This document shows positions 9,697-28,443 of a DNA stretch of 30,653 nucleotides, one piece after another. The translations under genes were made by a program, and so were the position numbers. Location of the stretch: IMG/VR virus record IMGVR_UViG_3300031566_000243, positions 1 to 30,653 of that record. One strand, 5' to 3'. Origin of the DNA: a virus. Numbering within the stretch: the first letter of the stretch is position 1; each line of letters opens with the position of its first letter. Under the pieces are notes generated by a model, which was given only the letters and a program-made list of their open reading frames with translations, searched no databases and was not told the origin of the DNA.

Positions 9697-10643
9697 AGCA
9701 CTCCCTCTCTCCACATGTGCATACCCTCATCGAGTGAGATGTTTGCGCGTACCCTGCAGGCATGAGTCTTGGCCATGTCTGCCACCCGCCAATAGACTCC
9801 CTCGGGCTTGCTCTTGTTGTGGCATATCGCTGCCTGCTTATCGCAAGCGGCCAGAGCGCGCGATGCGAAATCGATGAACTTGACGGGTATGCCAGTCCCG
9901 AGGTTGTACGTGCCCCCGCCATGTAACTGGTGTAACTCAAACGCCATGCGGCAGATATCGTTTATGTGAATCCAGTCCCGGCATTGTGTCCCAGAACCCC
10001 AGACCACGACCGGGTCTTCTCCGTCGACGACTCGCTGCATAATCGCCGGGAAGGGGTAGGCAAGTCCTTGGTCTGTACCGTAGCCACTGAACGGCCGGAA
10101 GATTGTGACCTGGGTATCAGCGAGGAACGAGCAGAGATATTCGCCGGTGACTTTTGCCCAGCCGTAGGTCATGTCGGGCCGGCCTATCCAAGCCGACTTC
10201 TCAAGCGCTATCATGTCCTCGCTCAACAGGCGCTTGGTGCGACGTTTCTGCCAACACGTTGGGTAGGCCGCCGAGGACGAGAAGTACATGAGTTCCTTAG
10301 CCATCCCACCATGCACAGCAGCTATGACCGCCTGGTCTATCGCCAAGTTCTCAGCAACGTCGATAGCGCGGTTCTCGATTTCCAATCTGCCCCCGACGCG
10401 AGCCGCCAGATGAATGCACAAGTCGAATCGCTGTTTCCGCTTCAGGAACGCCCGCACGTCCATTTCCCAGAACCGGTCAAACTGGGTGTACAGTTCCTGC
10501 TTATCCCACTCCTCGCGGCCCTCGGAGAAATCGTCCACGCCAACGAGATGAACGTTTTCGAGATTCCGGCGTATCCACCGCGTGAACGCGCGGCCCACGA
10601 AACCCGCTGCTCCTGTGATTAGGATTAGTCTGTCAGGACTCAT
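9693..10643 (-). CDS. NAD-dependent sugar epimerase/dehydratase (SDR family)
   Basis: 316 aa from ATG 10643, which overlaps the preceding stop by 11 nt. GAAGFVG (residues 11-17) is the Rossmann GxxGxxG motif. A SSS triad segment (122-124) and Tyr160-xxx-Lys164 (YGWAK) complete the extended-SDR active site. DLCIHLAARVGG and WIHINDICRM also fit the family. The pattern is close to GDP-fucose synthase and UDP-hexose epimerases. It should supply a modified nucleotide sugar to the adjacent transferases. The exact sugar cannot be told from sequence reading alone. Confidence 0.9.
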   Translation of the reverse strand: MSPDRLILITGAAGFVGRAFTRWIRRNLENVHLVGVDDFSEGREEWDKQELYTQFDRFWEMDVRAFLKRKQRFDLCIHLAARVGGRLEIENRAIDVAENLAIDQAVIAAVHGGMAKELMYFSSSAAYPTCWQKRRTKRLLSEDMIALEKSAWIGRPDMTYGWAKVTGEYLCSFLADTQVTIFRPFSGYGTDQGLAYPFPAIMQRVVDGEDPVVVWGSGTQCRDWIHINDICRMAFELHQLHGGGTYNLGTGIPVKFIDFASRALAACDKQAAICHNKSKPEGVYWRVADMAKTHACRVRANISLDEGMHMWREGVL

Positions 10644-12702
10644 CGTGTATCGCCTTATAGGCCCGCGAGACAATATCAGGGACAGTCCAGTCGACGCCCC
10701 GGACTATACCGTCGCCGCAATCTCCTATCTGCCCCTTCCACCGCAGCCACGCGTCCGCCTGCTGCACGTGCTTGTCACGCTGCTTGTAATAGCCCTTCTT
10801 GAGCGTCATAAACTCGCGTGGCATACAGTGCCCCATGTGATACAGCACGCAGGTTGTACCTAGCGCCTCTACGGTCTTGCGATTGTTGTGCGACGCCCAT
10901 GCAATCTTTTTCGAGGCTGCGGCATACGGCACGATGTGCGAGTGCCAATAGTGACTTGCCCGCCACGGCAGGATGCGGACATGCGGCCAGACGGCACCGT
11001 AAGGTTTGACTTCTTCGCCCCACCGATACAAGCCGCTTGATACAATGTGATGTCCGAGGTCGTGCCAGAAGGTGACAGCGAGCGGACAGCCGCCGTCGAT
11101 AGTACCCTTGCCAAGTGCGGCCACGTAGTTCTCGAAGCCCGTCCAGATTTCATCCGAGTCCAGAATCATCAGGTAGTTGCCGGTGATTCGCTCCACCGCT
11201 GCGTCTCGCATTGCCTGCCGACAGGCTTTGCCGTCTGTACCAGGCCAGACATCCTTAGCGATTATCTGTATCTTGCCGTCCGGGTCAGGGAAGTTACGAA
11301 GCACCTCCAGGGTGTTGTCCTCAGGCCACGGCCATGCTTGCTCTCGGCCATACGAGATGATGATTTCGTGGACGTGTGGGTATACCGCTTCGAGAGCGAA
11401 GGGGACAACCTTAGCGCAGGCGTAGGCGTTCATCACTGCCGAGATGCGAGGCTTGGAAGAACAGAAATAGGGTAGGTCATCAATGGCCTCGCGCTGCGCT
11501 GCCATGCCCAAGGTCTTGAGTATCGCCCCTTGCTTGCGCTTGCTCACCACGTGTTTCTTGGGTGCGCTTAACACACTATGTGCCGCTATTGTGTACGCCT
11601 GCTTATTTCCGCGCTCAACGTAGGTTAGCGCATCACCGTATTCCTGCCTCAGTACCGGCAGGTCGTAGACAATGACGGGAGTGCGGACGGCCAAGGCCTC
11701 GGCTGGCACCATGCCAAATCCCTCGAAGTCGCTAGGCGCAAGTACCGCCACCGCCTCGCGCATCAGAGCGAACTTCACGCGGTCGCTTACATTCGGGAAA
11801 TGGTGCACCTTGTGCAGCGGGCCGGGTATGGCGTTTGGGCCTCCATTAAGTCGGCCTACTTTCACCCAGTCCATTTGCTTGCCGTAGGCAAACACGACAT
11901 CGCAGGCCAATTGGTCGTTCTTGTATCCGCTCCCCCGGCCACAGCTCACGATAAACTTACGACCTTGCAGACCCTTCGGCACCTTGCCCCCTTCGAGGGC
12001 AGTCTCGTTGACCGCAGGGTTTATCACTTCGAGTGGGGCGTCCTTATCGTCAAGCCACAAACGGAGAAACGCTGCGGACTCGTCAGACGTAGCGAGCATC
12101 AAATCCGCCGCTCGAAAGACGTCCTTGTAGTCGTCGTGATATGCAATCAGTTTCGCAACATCCGGCCTGAACTGCGTGAACCAATTCGGCGTCTCGAAGT
12201 TCCAGGCTACAAAGGGAACTCCATGCTCCCTTGCGTATTGCAGTCCTTGCCGTGCCACCGCGTTCTTGCCGTCCACGACGACAAGGTCGAAATCGGGGAT
12301 GATGCTCGGGGAGTCCTTCGAGGTATCCCACAGCACCAGGTTGTCCAATGCCGGGTAGTCATTCCACCAAGGCGGCGTTGAGTCGGTCGCAACCGTTACG
12401 TGATTGCCAAGTTGAGCGAGGTTCCAAGCGAACTGGGTTAGGTGCACTCGGCCGCCAGAGTAGAACTTCTTCATCGGGAACCAGCAGAGCAGCCGCCGGC
12501 GGCCCCCCGGAATCACGGGGGATATAAGTAGCCGTTTGTCCGCCTGGCTTGTGCTCAACTCCTTGGGGATTATGACTCCCTTGCGTAGGAGTGTCCGGGC
12601 CTCGTGTCGGTTGAGGACGTCAACGAGTTGGCCGGGGTGGAGAACTACAGCCTTCCCCATCTGGTCGTGAAACTCGAACTCAGTTAGTACTCTGAACCAC
12701 AT
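10633..12702 (-). CDS. Bifunctional glycosyltransferase (GT4-like + GT2-like)
   Basis: 689 aa with three parts. Residues 1-48 form a small module (VVLHPGQLVDVLNRHEARTL) like that of small phage neck proteins. Residues about 68-385 form a GT-B fold with GGRVHLTQFAWNLAQLG and the EX7E motif E327-E335 (DFEGFGMVPAEAL), typical of GT4. Residues about 418-689 form a GT-A domain starting RISAVMNAYACAKVVPFALE, with DSDE at 515-518 as the metal site. The gene begins 77 nt after the capsid stop, behind a GC-rich hairpin. Two transferase domains in one chain imply sequential sugar additions. The substrate is unknown; virion decoration is the likely purpose. Confidence 0.88.
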   Translation of the reverse strand: MWFRVLTEFEFHDQMGKAVVLHPGQLVDVLNRHEARTLLRKGVIIPKELSTSQADKRLLISPVIPGGRRRLLCWFPMKKFYSGGRVHLTQFAWNLAQLGNHVTVATDSTPPWWNDYPALDNLVLWDTSKDSPSIIPDFDLVVVDGKNAVARQGLQYAREHGVPFVAWNFETPNWFTQFRPDVAKLIAYHDDYKDVFRAADLMLATSDESAAFLRLWLDDKDAPLEVINPAVNETALEGGKVPKGLQGRKFIVSCGRGSGYKNDQLACDVVFAYGKQMDWVKVGRLNGGPNAIPGPLHKVHHFPNVSDRVKFALMREAVAVLAPSDFEGFGMVPAEALAVRTPVIVYDLPVLRQEYGDALTYVERGNKQAYTIAAHSVLSAPKKHVVSKRKQGAILKTLGMAAQREAIDDLPYFCSSKPRISAVMNAYACAKVVPFALEAVYPHVHEIIISYGREQAWPWPEDNTLEVLRNFPDPDGKIQIIAKDVWPGTDGKACRQAMRDAAVERITGNYLMILDSDEIWTGFENYVAALGKGTIDGGCPLAVTFWHDLGHHIVSSGLYRWGEEVKPYGAVWPHVRILPWRASHYWHSHIVPYAAASKKIAWASHNNRKTVEALGTTCVLYHMGHCMPREFMTLKKGYYKQRDKHVQQADAWLRWKGQIGDCGDGIVRGVDWTVPDIVSRAYKAIHDES

Positions 12703-21624: not shown

Positions 21625-22251
21625 TCAAAGTCTGCCGCCGTCTCCGCCGCCTTCTCCGCCGCCAACTCCGCCGCCAACGCCGCCTCCCACGCCGCCGCCG
21701 CCTTCCGCCCCCTCGCACAGCGCCCGTTGCTCGTCCGTCAAGTCCTTGCGCTCCTCGGCAATCCGAGCGCAGCCGTCGGCGTCTGCCCCCGCGATACACG
21801 CTGACACCTGCTCATTCGTCAAGTCCTCGCGGTTAATGGCAATCCGGGCGCGGCCATACGTGTCAGTCCCCGCGATGCACGCTGAGATTTGCTCGTCCGT
21901 CAAGTCCTTGCACACGCTAACAATCCAGTGGCGGCCATTCGCGTCTGTCCCCGCGATGCACGCTGAGATTTGCTCGTCCGTCAAGTCCTTGCACCCCGAA
22001 GCAATCCGCTCGCAGCCGTAGGCGTTCGTCCCCGCGATACAAGCATCGACTTGCGCGGGGGTCAGTCCTGGATAGTGCGTGACGAGCCAACCGAGGAAGC
22101 CCCTCAGTTCGTCGTCCGCAGCCAGCCGCTCAATTAGTTCGTCTGCTAGGGCGACTCCGTCGGGGTACGTTTCGCCAAACCATTCCATCGCCTCGCATTC
22201 CTCTATCGCTCCAACGCTCAACAAGGTTTTGCGTGTGATTGTTTCGGTCAT
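21625..22251 (-). CDS. Four-repeat (27 aa) protein with glycine-rich tail
   Basis: 208 aa from ATG 22251, which overlaps the DUF5131 stop as ATGA. Residues 1-65 are acidic and helical (AIEECEAMEWFGETYPDGVA). Residues 68-175 are four tandem 27-residue units with consensus xSACIAGTDAxGxxRIAxxxKDLTDEQ. The last 26 residues are almost only glycine, broken by single V, E and D. Each repeat ends in an N-capped helix start (LTDEQ), so an alpha-solenoid for protein binding is likely. A bacterial or phage function is not known to me. Confidence 0.8.
   Translation of the reverse strand: MTETITRKTLLSVGAIEECEAMEWFGETYPDGVALADELIERLAADDELRGFLGWLVTHYPGLTPAQVDACIAGTNAYGCERIASGCKDLTDEQISACIAGTDANGRHWIVSVCKDLTDEQISACIAGTDTYGRARIAINREDLTNEQVSACIAGADADGCARIAEERKDLTDEQRALCEGAEGGGGVGGGVGGGVGGGEGGGDGGRL
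21727..22050 (-). repeat. Four tandem 81-bp repeats
   Basis: 324 bp, exactly four units of 81 bp (27 codons), starting at 22050, 21969, 21888 and 21807 on the minus strand. All keep A-C-I/L-A-G and (K/E)DLT(D/N)EQ. The two central units share CKDLTDEQISACIAGTD at DNA level, showing recent duplication. Confidence 0.9.
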
Positions 22252-23855: not shown

Positions 23856-24196
23856 GAGCAACCCCCTAACCCGCCACAGACACACTGAGCGGCCTCTGTC
23901 AACGTCTCCGATTGCTTGTCGCCTTCGACGCTTTCGATTTCCCGCTTGGCTTGAGCCAAGGCCCAGTCGGCCGGGACGTATCGCCGGCGGACAACGGAGG
24001 CGATTGCCCACGCCGCCGGGTTGGCTTTGTGGGGAGCGACCAGGAGCAGAGCGTGAATGCGTTGGCGCTCGTCGCGCCCCGGCTCACAACCCTGGATGCA
24101 GCGGGCTAGGTAGGAGACGGCGTTGTACCTTTCCGTTGCCGTGTCCGGCCAGTCTCTCAAGAGCCGAAATGCATTACGGTTGACTTCAGTCTCCAT
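23852..24196 (-). CDS. Hypothetical protein downstream of the origin, 114 aa
   Basis: ATG 24196 has AAGGAGG 5 nt upstream. Helical and mixed in charge: RNAFRLLRDWPDTATERYNA, VSYLARCIQGCEPG, then HALLLVAPHKANPAAWAIAS and VVRRRYVPADWALAQAKREI. The end is Gly/Cys-rich (CVCGGLGGCS). It is the first gene after the proposed replication origin, so a replication accessory role is plausible but unproven. No motif for helicase loader or primase is seen. Confidence 0.68.
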   Translation of the reverse strand: METEVNRNAFRLLRDWPDTATERYNAVSYLARCIQGCEPGRDERQRIHALLLVAPHKANPAAWAIASVVRRRYVPADWALAQAKREIESVEGDKQSETLTEAAQCVCGGLGGCS

Positions 24197-24262
24197 GCGA
24201 GCCTCCTTAAGACCAGAGAAGGTTAATAGCCTAGCCGTTAATCCGTTTGGCTTTTGTATCTG

Positions 24263-24294
24263 TTTATTGTCCTCTTGTCTTCTTGTCTTCTTGT
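24263..24294. repeat. 8-bp tandem repeats in the AT-rich part of the origin region
   Basis: On the plus strand TTTATTGT, CCTCTTGT, CTTCTTGT and CTTCTTGT stand head to tail. The stretch is pyrimidine-rich on one strand and weakly paired, a plausible duplex-unwinding element. A stem around TACG-TTTT-CGTA lies next to it at 24307-24318. Confidence 0.6.
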
Positions 24295-24338
24295 ATTAAG
24301 CGGAAATACGTTTTCGTACTTCCTGCACGACGTGACTT

Positions 24339-24803
24339 TCATGTGACATCCCCGTGACCGCGCTGCCGTCTTTTCCGTAACGTGTTTCCCTGCCTACGGT
24401 TAGCGTTCCTTCGCAACCTGCGTGACGTGAGCGTGACGCGGGGCGTGACGGTCACGGAAATGGACGAGTTATTCACAGCCTTTTGAGACGTTTTTGAGAC
24501 GTTTTTGAGTGTCTTTTGAGGGCCTTCATCTCCATTCGTTCGTTTCCCCCGGGCGAAGTAGACGCCGCAAACCCTCTTTGAGTGGAGTTCGGCGACGGCT
24601 TTTTCGACAACACGTGCCTCGCTCCTGGTCAGCCTGGCGAGTTCAGCGAACGTTCCCGACACCTTGTATTCGCCGGTCTGCCACATCACACACAGGCATT
24701 CAATCCAGAACCCTCGGGTCGCCAGGTCGCACCGTCCGAGTTCCGCGTCGGCCGCCCATGCTTTCGGCCAGAACTTGACCCAGTGAAACCTATCGGTTAC
24801 GAT
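24339..24803 (-). CDS. Replication-initiator-like protein (DUF1376-type N-terminus), non-canonical start
   Basis: The frame runs from just after a TGA upstream of the annealing-gene stop down to TGA 24339. Conserved sequence begins before any ATG/GTG: codons from 24791 encode DRFHWVKFWPKAW..., then CDLATRGFWIECLCVMWQTG and EYKVSGTFAELARLTRSEAR. This is the winged-helix N-terminus of phage replisome-organiser-like proteins. GAGGGGG lies 8 nt before an ATC at 24803, the best start I can see (MVTDRFHW if read as Met; about 154 aa). GTG 24689 would cut the domain in half. The basic C-terminus (RRLRRNANRRQGNTLRKRRQ) is encoded by DNA carrying iterons. It probably binds the origin and recruits host replication proteins. 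Confidence 0.72.
   Translation of the reverse strand: MVTDRFHWVKFWPKAWAADAELGRCDLATRGFWIECLCVMWQTGEYKVSGTFAELARLTRSEARVVEKAVAELHSKRVCGVYFARGKRTNGDEGPQKTLKNVSKTSQKAVNNSSISVTVTPRVTLTSRRLRRNANRRQGNTLRKRRQRGHGDVT
24421..24456. repeat. CGTGAC repeats and palindrome
   Basis: CGTGAC at 24421, 24432 and 24444 (spacings 11 and 12), the last forming CGTGAC-G-GTCACG with 24451-24456. Further copies lie at 24331 and 24353. Helical phasing and inverted symmetry suggest binding of a dimeric protein. Confidence 0.62.
24469..24477 (+). promoter_or_regulatory. DnaA-box match
   Basis: TTATTCACA fits the relaxed DnaA consensus TTATNCACA exactly. It stands 3 bp from the first 11-bp iteron and 12 bp from the CGTGAC palindrome. 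A single box could be chance, but its location between two repeat clusters raises the likelihood. Confidence 0.55.
24481..24524. repeat. Four 11-bp iterons inside the replication gene
   Basis: TTTTGAGACGT (24481), TTTTGAGACGT (24492), TTTTGAGTGTC (24503), TTTTGAGGGCC (24514). All keep TTTTGAG, with an exact 11-bp period. Because 11 is not a multiple of three, the conserved repeat cannot be explained by a repeated peptide; it indicates selection on DNA. Confidence 0.85.
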
Positions 24804-25678
24804 TTCTTGTCCCCCTCATCAGAGTCCTTATCAAAGAGATTGTCAACCGCAGGCCCGGGTTGCTCGGCTGGGGGCTTGCGGTTTCCCACATCGGCGAACG
24901 CGTCGGCAACCGTGATTTCGCCCTGGGCAATCGCGTTGTACAGGCCCCTCATTCTGGTATACTCAGCATCCCCGAAATCATCCAGGCCCATGCAGGCTAC
25001 AGCCTCAATCATCTTGCGGGTCACATCGAACTCCATAAAGGCGGCCAGGAGCCTCGCTCCACGTGTGCTCTTTGTGTTGGCTATGGTCTTGGGATTGCTC
25101 AAGACCTCCACCACCTTGTGCCGGTAGGCGTGTTTGAGTCCGTTGGGTAGACTCCGCAGGATTGTCTCGCGCAGGAGTTTGCTCATTGCCGCCGGGACGG
25201 TCACGCTGTGAAAACGGTCTTCCGGCGTTCGCGTCATCTTGCCATATCGGTCTTTGTAGTAGCGGCTAATGGTGAGGCTTCGCTGATGACGCACATTGCT
25301 CTCATAATCCAACCAGACCGCTACCAGGACAACGGCTGTCCCGGTATCGCTTGCAATCTCGCAGCCATAGGCACTATTAGACCAGCGGTTGGCGAGGTCT
25401 TCGGCAGCCCGAATCGACAAGCCTTCGACGTGGAGCATCTTACCACTTTTGTCTTTGCCGACTGGCTTGCTGTAGAGCGCTTCGTCCGCTGCCTCTGGAT
25501 AGCGTTCAAGACCTTCCAGGGCGGCCTTCAAGATTGCCGTCTCGTCCCGCTTCTCCACCCGTGCGATTTGCATCTGAGTCGTATTTTCCAGGCGAGCCAG
25601 AGCAACCCCGTGGTCAATCAAGTCCATCGGGTTTTCCGCAATGACTTCGCTCTCAAAGACGTCGTCTTTCTCTGCCAT
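24797..25678 (-). CDS. Candidate recombination (single-strand annealing-like) protein, 293 aa
   Basis: ATG 25678 follows AAGGAGAGAGAG. Core sequence: LHVEGLSIRAAEDLANRWSN, TAVVLVAVWLDYESNVRHQR, SLTISRYYKDRYGKM, VTVPAAMSKLLRETILRSLP, NGLKHAYRHKVVE. The layout (Gly-Ser-Ile-Arg-x-Ala, then a strand with RYY, then a conserved helix before a basic end) is what I know from phage proteins found beside RecB-like nucleases and thought to act in recombination. The tail (KPPAEQPGPAVDNLFDKDSD) is disordered and acidic, as in single-strand DNA-binding partners. Neighbouring the Fe-S nuclease supports a two-gene recombination unit. A clear RecT/Erf/Redbeta match is not visible. Confidence 0.6.
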   Translation of the reverse strand: MAEKDDVFESEVIAENPMDLIDHGVALARLENTTQMQIARVEKRDETAILKAALEGLERYPEAADEALYSKPVGKDKSGKMLHVEGLSIRAAEDLANRWSNSAYGCEIASDTGTAVVLVAVWLDYESNVRHQRSLTISRYYKDRYGKMTRTPEDRFHSVTVPAAMSKLLRETILRSLPNGLKHAYRHKVVEVLSNPKTIANTKSTRGARLLAAFMEFDVTRKMIEAVACMGLDDFGDAEYTRMRGLYNAIAQGEITVADAFADVGNRKPPAEQPGPAVDNLFDKDSDEGDKKS

Positions 25679-25688
25679 CTCTCTCTCC

Positions 25689-26498
25689 TTAGCCCACTGG
25701 GACAGTTACAGGGTGACTAGCATACGGGCAAACATGCCAATAGCCACACCACTTTTCAGAACATCCCCACCAGTCCAAAGCCGCGGGGACAAACACTCCT
25801 TTGTCAAGCATATTCTGCAAGGCCGCGAACCGGTTCAGTACGACCTGCACCTGTGCCTTGACACGTACGGTTTGACGGATAACGGCCTTCGGGCCTCCTT
25901 TGAGATTGACGAGGCCATCCAGGGCCGCTTGCACAGGTTCCGACGATTGCCGCTCTTGCATGGCGGCCATCGCGTAGACGGTGATTTGCTCAAGTGAATC
26001 CGCAACCGCCTGAGATACCCGGCCAGATTGGCCGGTGGTTTTCAGTTCGCGGACGACCCCATCAGAGTCCTCGACATCGACATATCCGATGATGGGTCGC
26101 AGCCCTGCCACATTCACCGTGACCTTCTTCTCAATCGCTACGGGGGTGATGTGTGGCAGGATGTCAGACCGGTCGCAGAGAGCCAAGGCAATCGCCGCGT
26201 CCTTCGTCTCGCCGGCGACAACCGCAGGATTGTCATCAGCGGCGAACTCGACCTCCCCGGCAAAGGCTGCTGTCACGTCGTCACTGACCAGGGCAGCAGA
26301 TTCGTCAGGGGTGAGCAATTCTCCAGTCTCGCTTTTCGCCATCAGCGACCGCCGATGAGTTTGATGTACCGCACTCCCGCGAATCAGGGCAGCCCCCGGC
26401 GGACGCTTCAAGCCGTCCACGTAGCGAAACCGATACTGCTGACCGCAATGCTCTGCCATCAGGAGTTGCGTGGCCGAATAGTGCTCTGCGTGGGTCAC
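25689..26498 (-). CDS. PD-(D/E)XK exonuclease with Fe-S cluster (RecB/Cas4-like)
   Basis: 269 aa from GTG 26498, which overlaps the previous stop by 4 nt (GTGA) with GAAGGTG upstream. Motifs in order: C18 (LMAEHC), GSAVH (41-45), D141 (IIGYVDVEDSDG), E151-K153 (ELKTTG), Q171-xxx-Y175 (EQITVY), and C246, C251, C257 (CSEKWCGYWHVCPY). One early and three late cysteines match the 4Fe-4S ring of AddB and Cas4-type nucleases. Probable 5' or dual-polarity exonuclease that prepares single strands for the adjacent annealing-like protein. All catalytic residues are present. Confidence 0.92.
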   Translation of the reverse strand: MTHAEHYSATQLLMAEHCGQQYRFRYVDGLKRPPGAALIRGSAVHQTHRRSLMAKSETGELLTPDESAALVSDDVTAAFAGEVEFAADDNPAVVAGETKDAAIALALCDRSDILPHITPVAIEKKVTVNVAGLRPIIGYVDVEDSDGVVRELKTTGQSGRVSQAVADSLEQITVYAMAAMQERQSSEPVQAALDGLVNLKGGPKAVIRQTVRVKAQVQVVLNRFAALQNMLDKGVFVPAALDWWGCSEKWCGYWHVCPYASHPVTVPVG

Positions 26499-26851
26499 CG
26501 TGCCACCTTCATCGCTTGCCGCCACGCCTGCCAGAGCATCGGCGGGGTAGCGATATAGCGCTCTTCGCGGCACGCGCAGAAGTCCCTACAGTTCTCTTCC
26601 GCCCAACCGGGCAGGTCGATGTCATGACCGACTATGAGCGCCTCGACGCGCTCAAACAAATTATCGTCCTCTGCGAGCAGGTGCATATAGGCGTAGATGG
26701 CCGCCTGCCTAATGTCCGTCGTAAAGACCGGTTCCCCTGGGATAGTGGCTTCGAGGAGCGTCTCGGCCAGGACGGTCAACTGCTCGTCCCCCCCCAAGTA
26801 ACGAAACCAATCTGCGATTGTCCGTAAATCTTGTTCCTCTTTAACCATCAT
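26495..26851 (-). CDS. Hypothetical early protein, 118 aa
   Basis: ATG 26851 overlaps the previous stop (ATGA) with a G6 run upstream; ATG 26848 is also possible. Mostly helical and acidic: LRTIADWFRYLGGDEQLTVL, FTTDIRQAAIYAYMHLLAED, RVEALIVGHDIDLPGWAEEN, then a Cys segment CRDFCACREERY. The end is WQAWRQAMKVAR. It is translationally coupled to the nuclease gene downstream. Family not recognised. Confidence 0.66.
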   Translation of the reverse strand: MMVKEEQDLRTIADWFRYLGGDEQLTVLAETLLEATIPGEPVFTTDIRQAAIYAYMHLLAEDDNLFERVEALIVGHDIDLPGWAEENCRDFCACREERYIATPPMLWQAWRQAMKVAR

Positions 26852-28082: not shown

Positions 28083-28249
28083 CACTTGTCCCTCCTCAGA
28101 ACCACTATAGCGGCAACCACGAAAAGCAGTATAACCATGCCACAAGGCCCGAGGGCTTGGTACACGGAGGCATCCTCCGGAAGGGTTGCGAGAAGAAGTA
28201 TAGTCATCGCAACACAAAGCATCGAAAGGGCTAAGCGCATCTCGGCCAT
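28082..28249 (-). CDS. Small two-span membrane protein, 55 aa
   Basis: ATG 28249 overlaps the stop of the HTH gene (TGATG), with GAGGGGG upstream. Spans about residues 5-22 (RLALSMLCVAMTILLLATL) and 33-50 (GPCGMVILLFVVAAIVV), ending LRRDK. A longer upstream reading frame exists but lacks a ribosome site. Tandem with the 58-aa membrane protein; the two may form a pair. Role unknown. Confidence 0.7.
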   Translation of the reverse strand: MAEMRLALSMLCVAMTILLLATLPEDASVYQALGPCGMVILLFVVAAIVVLRRDK

Positions 28250-28443
28250 CACTTTGCCCCCTCTTCCGTGAGATAGCGCTCCAGTGCCGAACGATACAAT
28301 CCCGTTGGCATGGCATTTCCTTGCCACCAGCGCGCGACCGTCTGAGTGTGGCAGTTCAACATCACAGCCACATCCTGCTGCGTGTGGCCCCGCGCCCGCG
28401 CGGTCTCGCGGAGGCGCTTTGCAAACATCTTGTCATTCGCCAT
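28249..28443 (-). CDS. XRE-type HTH regulator, 64 aa
   Basis: ATG 28443 (GGAGG 8 nt upstream) gives MANDKMFAKRLRETARARGH, then TQQDVAVMLNCHTQTVARWW and a C-terminal helix. This is the five-helix Cro/C1 fold: helix 2 TQQDVAVML, helix 3 HTQTVARWW, the normal spacing of lambda-like repressors. It is the second gene after the early promoter, so autoregulation of that promoter is a natural guess. No dimerisation or cleavage domain is present, so it is Cro-like rather than CI-like. Confidence 0.84.
   Translation of the reverse strand: MANDKMFAKRLRETARARGHTQQDVAVMLNCHTQTVARWWQGNAMPTGLYRSALERYLTEEGAK

Follow-up and report, generated by a model that had tools for sequence, protein, structure and literature searches.

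In the phage studied here the gene for the likely replication initiator lacks any standard start codon, and we consider it probable that this gene is weakly translated from an AUC codon at 24803, aided by a strong Shine-Dalgarno site. The window, that is the whole stretch of virus DNA analysed, comprises positions 1-30,653 of IMG/VR record IMGVR_UViG_3300031566_000243 (30,653 bases). Its long genes, those for terminase, portal and major head protein among them, lie on the minus strand. The replication gene has an upstream gene, P0001, on one side and on the other a small gene whose ribosome site, at 24196, is strong. The features that concern its start are:

24339..24803, minus strand: replisome-organizer-like gene of 154 codons plus a TGA stop (24341-24339), recognised from its open frame, its 119 relatives, the family matches of the aligned relatives and a winged-helix-like model
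24797..25678, minus strand: P0001, the upstream gene (phrog_3657), whose stop TAA (24799-24797) and the proposed start overlap in the form ATCGTAA
24801..24803, minus strand: ATC, the proposed start codon, the sole near-cognate codon between the upstream stop and the conserved Trp
24809..24818, minus strand: Shine-Dalgarno site TGAGGGGG, with 8 bp of pairing, a spacing of 6 to the ATC and a duplex energy of -11.4 kcal/mol
24817..24819, minus strand: ATG outside the gene's frame, behind a Shine-Dalgarno site of moderate strength (-5.9 kcal/mol, spacing 4); this ATG would be in frame if a five-G run were one base shorter

Reading frame and ribosome site of the replication gene

The replication gene has a minus-strand frame that is closed upstream by tandem TGA stops at 24821-24816 and is open from there to the TGA at 24341-24339. 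Its first part reads CTC TGA TGA GGG GGA CAA GAA ATC GTA ACC GAT AGG TTT CAC TGG, and from the stop to the conserved Trp at 24782-24780 it has no ATG, GTG, TTG, CTG, ATT or ATA. The earliest standard start in the frame is GTG 24689, followed by ATG 24686, and both come after the beginning of the conserved N-terminal motif at 24782. The claim of the first-pass annotation that this gene is without a standard start is thus borne out, as is its placing of an ATC at a good distance from the ribosome site GAGGGGG, which lies just upstream of the ATC at 24803-24801. Its description of the upstream ORF as an annealing gene found no support, P0001 matching phrog_3657, a family with no assigned function. 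A code in which TGA is read as sense was considered and rejected; 20 of the 28 reference genes end at TGA, and the upstream TGAs are therefore taken as stops.

The Shine-Dalgarno helix before the ATC is formed of 8 continuous base pairs at a spacing of 6 nt, and a stronger site is present at just four of the 28 reference genes of the phage, the ATC site ranking fifth of 29. Among the 322 ATC triplets of the minus strand only one, that at 24803, has so strong a site so placed, and an equally strong site at a spacing of 4-8 is found at 80 of 30,593 minus-strand positions (0.26%). Chance also produces such sites, for of the 27 strong Shine-Dalgarno-like sites on this strand 10 others are without a standard start in their vicinity. 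The proposed start and the stop of P0001 overlap as ATCGTAA, a geometry that would suit coupled re-initiation, and overlaps of 4 bases occur in three gene pairs of the reference set. Another overlapping gene start is found at 28249-28262, where GAGGGGG is followed by 7 nt and then by an ATG directly at the upstream stop. The layout of its ribosome site is the same as at ATC 24803, but the codon is standard.

We infer from this arrangement how initiation at the AUC might take place. The strong Shine-Dalgarno site 6 nt upstream would hold the ribosome over the AUC, and ribosomes reaching the end of the upstream gene, which is only a few bases beyond, could re-initiate there with initiator tRNA. 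The weak codon would keep output low and would probably be sensitive to IF3, and with low output from the AUC the initiator would stay scarce. It is reasonable to suppose that such a low initiator dosage could serve copy control.

The conserved N-terminus in relatives

Relatives were taken from the best 80 of 430 viral-contig matches, 37 loci of GTDB genomes and 4 named records, 121 loci in all, of which 119 could be aligned with the window protein; the other two gave no match at the cut-off and were left uncounted. All 119 aligned relatives, which are not independent of one another (99 are distinct within the first 100 residues), begin with a standard codon, and this stands -1 to 13 codons ahead of the aligned Trp, with a median of 5. 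The codon is ATG in 91 of them, GTG in 23 and TTG in 5, and in a first, smaller set 84 of 84 loci likewise had a standard start in that range. The ATC at 24803 falls inside the same range, 7 codons before the conserved Trp. An alignment of homologues with a comparison of their start codons had been proposed in the first-pass annotation, which held that homologues starting after residue 38 would speak against its view; none of the 119 does so.

In a 67-row alignment residues F11, W16, D19, G31, W33 and L73 are invariant, and five of these six are in the first 38 residues, the part that would be lost with a start at 24689. The codon usage of 24794-24690, which lies outside the upstream gene, is gene-like, with a score of 0.095 where the in-frame mean is 0.115 and the off-frame mean -0.147; 103 of 2216 off-frame windows score as high. 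Judged on its conservation and codon usage, the conserved N-terminus upstream of the first GTG is a real part of the gene.

Close relatives were sought by single-protein scans with the replication gene and its upstream neighbour, and none was found. When the terminase and a piece of the exonuclease-like protein were used as queries, kin at about 56-57% identity turned up, and a profile search of these kin stretches for a relative of the replication gene gave no match. One locus, L006, has relatives of both the replication gene and P0001; its replication gene starts at ATG, several hundred bases past the upstream relative and without overlap. In the phage itself the exonuclease-like gene (phrog_69, 3.8e-11) is at 25689-26573, two places upstream of the replication gene, and together with P0001 it would fit a recombination pair.

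Alternative readings of the start

Besides the chance occurrence of strong Shine-Dalgarno-like sites, two points argue against an AUC start. The trait does not appear to be conserved, a non-standard start being present in 0 of the 119 relatives, though all of these are distant, and the third base of the ATC rests on one assembled record. What probability lies beyond the AUC reading belongs mostly to a sequence error or a recent mutation. A standard start codon could have stood at the position of the ATC, altered by a base-calling error or by a recent mutation in the phage, and the same Shine-Dalgarno site and position would fit this equally well; the standard start of every aligned relative also speaks for it. 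We nevertheless think it unlikely, in that a wrong base is seldom left in the consensus of a short-read assembly, if the record is of that kind, and the long genes elsewhere in the record are intact. It is also conceivable that the five-G run at 24812-24816 differs in length by one base, again through assembly error or mutation, and that the real start is ATG 24819, which has an AAGGA site of its own (-5.9 kcal/mol, spacing 4) and is separated from the frame of the gene by this run alone. That site is ordinary, however, being matched by 7.1% of positions, and the -11.4 kcal/mol site by the ATC would have to be a coincidence; there are 60 G or C runs of at least 5 in the record, yet the long genes examined are intact. 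A one-base difference in the G run is given a low probability, below that of a wrong or mutated base.

Loss of the start together with the function of the gene, which would then be decaying or made only as a truncated protein from GTG 24689, has if anything a slimmer chance. The protein is short (154 codons, against 134-460 in most of the relatives listed) and in codon usage its final 66 codons do not look like a gene (-0.12, with 4 of 441 in-frame windows as low), although the origin-like layout described below may account for the abnormal usage at the 3' end. Decay is opposed by a frame that is open throughout and by an N-terminal domain that is conserved and gene-like in codon usage, and among 11 proteins scanned no other replication initiator was found. 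GTG 24689 itself has no good Shine-Dalgarno site (-3.1 kcal/mol, spacing 13), and a start there would remove residues 1-38, with two helices and most of a third helix of the predicted domain, half of which would be lost. For its lack of a good site and the cut through the conserved domain, this internal start was rejected.

The first-pass annotation had offered a choice between low-level AUC initiation and entry of ribosomes by slippage from the overlapping gene. A -1 slippage producing a fusion protein would make use of the overlap of the two frames, the replication gene being in the -1 frame, but the canonical X XXY YYZ pattern is missing from all 6 in-phase heptamers that were examined there, slippage would leave the Shine-Dalgarno site without explanation and the relatives have their own starts. 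Slippage seems to us very improbable, and with no canonical heptamer among these six it was rejected as the means of entry; it is the AUC half of that interpretation that the Shine-Dalgarno site, the stop overlap and a position like that in relatives support.

The product, a candidate origin and known systems

The product of the gene is probably a winged-helix replication initiator or replisome organizer that starts DNA replication. Taken alone, the window protein has a sole and weak family match, to phrog_9327 'primosomal protein' (0.0094); a Pfam search with it gave no match, nor did a family search of its own record with phrog_9327. Its relatives are more informative: among 69 aligned members, 42 match phrog_13246 'replisome organizer', 22 'primosomal protein', 14 'replication initiation O-like' and 12 'DnaD-like helicase loader'. 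Through these shared relatives the protein appears to be related in sequence to named replisome organizers and O-like initiators. A structure model made with the 67-row alignment has a confident winged-helix-like domain at about residues 8-78 and is of weak confidence after about residue 78, the C-terminal part being poorly predicted and the protein short. The best matches among solved structures include the initiator domains 5kbj, 4pql and 4pt7 and DnaD (Z 6-7.5), although unrelated winged helices score alike (Z < 8) and the comparison does not single out initiators.

A layout resembling an origin is found around the 3' end of the gene:

24332..24449, plus strand: six iteron-like GTGAC repeats in two blocks, at 24332, 24343 and 24354 and at 24422, 24433 and 24445, 11-12 bp apart
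24469..24477, plus strand: DnaA-box-like TTATTCACA, which occurs 2 times in the record where 1.1 would be expected, no more often than by chance, and so weak alone
24481..24509, plus strand: 11-bp tandem repeat TTTTGAGACGT, 2.6 copies
24215..24324, no strand: the most A+T-rich 110 bp of the record (61.8% A+T), a candidate unwinding region

GTGAC occurs 6 times in 136 bp and at best 2 times in such a length elsewhere in the record, in a count made after the cluster had been noticed. A probable replication origin is predicted at 24215-24509, a stretch that takes in the 3' end of the gene and the sequence just past it, and the iteron-like GTGAC repeats are candidate sites for binding of the initiator beside its gene. 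In phage lambda the origin is inside the initiator gene O. The phage replisome organizers and O-like initiators (phrog_13246, phrog_345, phrog_9327) appear to resemble the window gene, via shared relatives, in the predicted N-terminal winged-helix-like domain, and may do so in the iteron-like repeats and A+T-rich block at the 3' end; the window gene differs in being shorter than most and in having no standard start. Repeats of another kind are found at 21727-22038, where about 4 copies of an 81-bp tandem repeat lie within a minus-strand ORF (21625-22251) coding for protein repeats of about 27 residues and then a glycine-rich C-terminal tail. Residues 223-368 of a 689-aa protein (10633-12702), encoded next to the major head protein gene, are glycosyltransferase-like (phrog_2170, 1.3e-10).

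Initiation at weak codons behind strong ribosome sites is a mechanism of known kind, and it is the AUC codon and the phage replication setting that are unusual. Mutation and blot have proved a GTC start for Streptomyces sigR, the ribosome site of which, AGGAGGTG, is very strong (PMC5472188). The gene described here would be like it in its non-standard start, its strong ribosome site, its place in a coupled operon and in being missed by gene finders restricted to ATG, GTG and TTG; sigR differs in that it encodes a cellular sigma factor, starts at GTC rather than ATC and is experimentally proved. In Staphylococcus aureus infC (AUA), cvfC1 (AUU) and ccpN (AUA) have weak starts behind strong sites, and in poor medium the output from such starts was about 10% of that from AUG (PMC13009471), and the AUU start of Escherichia coli pcnB is cited in the same paper. 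The likeness to these genes is in the non-AUG AUN start behind a strong or extended Shine-Dalgarno site, whereas their codons are AUU or AUA and here there is an AUC, in a phage replication gene that overlaps an upstream stop and for which conservation was not seen. Two features of the infC, sigR and ccpN type are present in the window gene, namely no standard start at the position used by homologues and a near-cognate codon well spaced from a strong site. A tendency for stronger Shine-Dalgarno sites to accompany weaker start codons is reported in a survey of start-codon evolution (PMC5622118). In an E. coli study of re-initiation, non-AUG re-initiation was obtained with initiator tRNA anticodon mutants, and excess IF3 inhibited less when a Shine-Dalgarno site was present (PMC2268962). 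No phage gene with an AUC start was among the papers that literature searches listed; what one of these searches returned was mostly animal mitochondrial genomes.

A more complete scheme, in which an AUC-limited phage initiator is gated by re-initiation from the overlapping upstream gene that follows the exonuclease-like gene, is put forward tentatively, as a possibility that we lean against. If it were true, the supply of initiator would track the expression of the operon and the level of host IF3. This gene, and hence the likely replication initiator of the phage, would be overlooked or cut short by gene finders limited to ATG, GTG and TTG. If the AUC start is real, the weak-start strategy of infC, pcnB, sigR and ccpN would extend to a phage replication gene, which would provide a simple and testable case of dosage control by the start codon.
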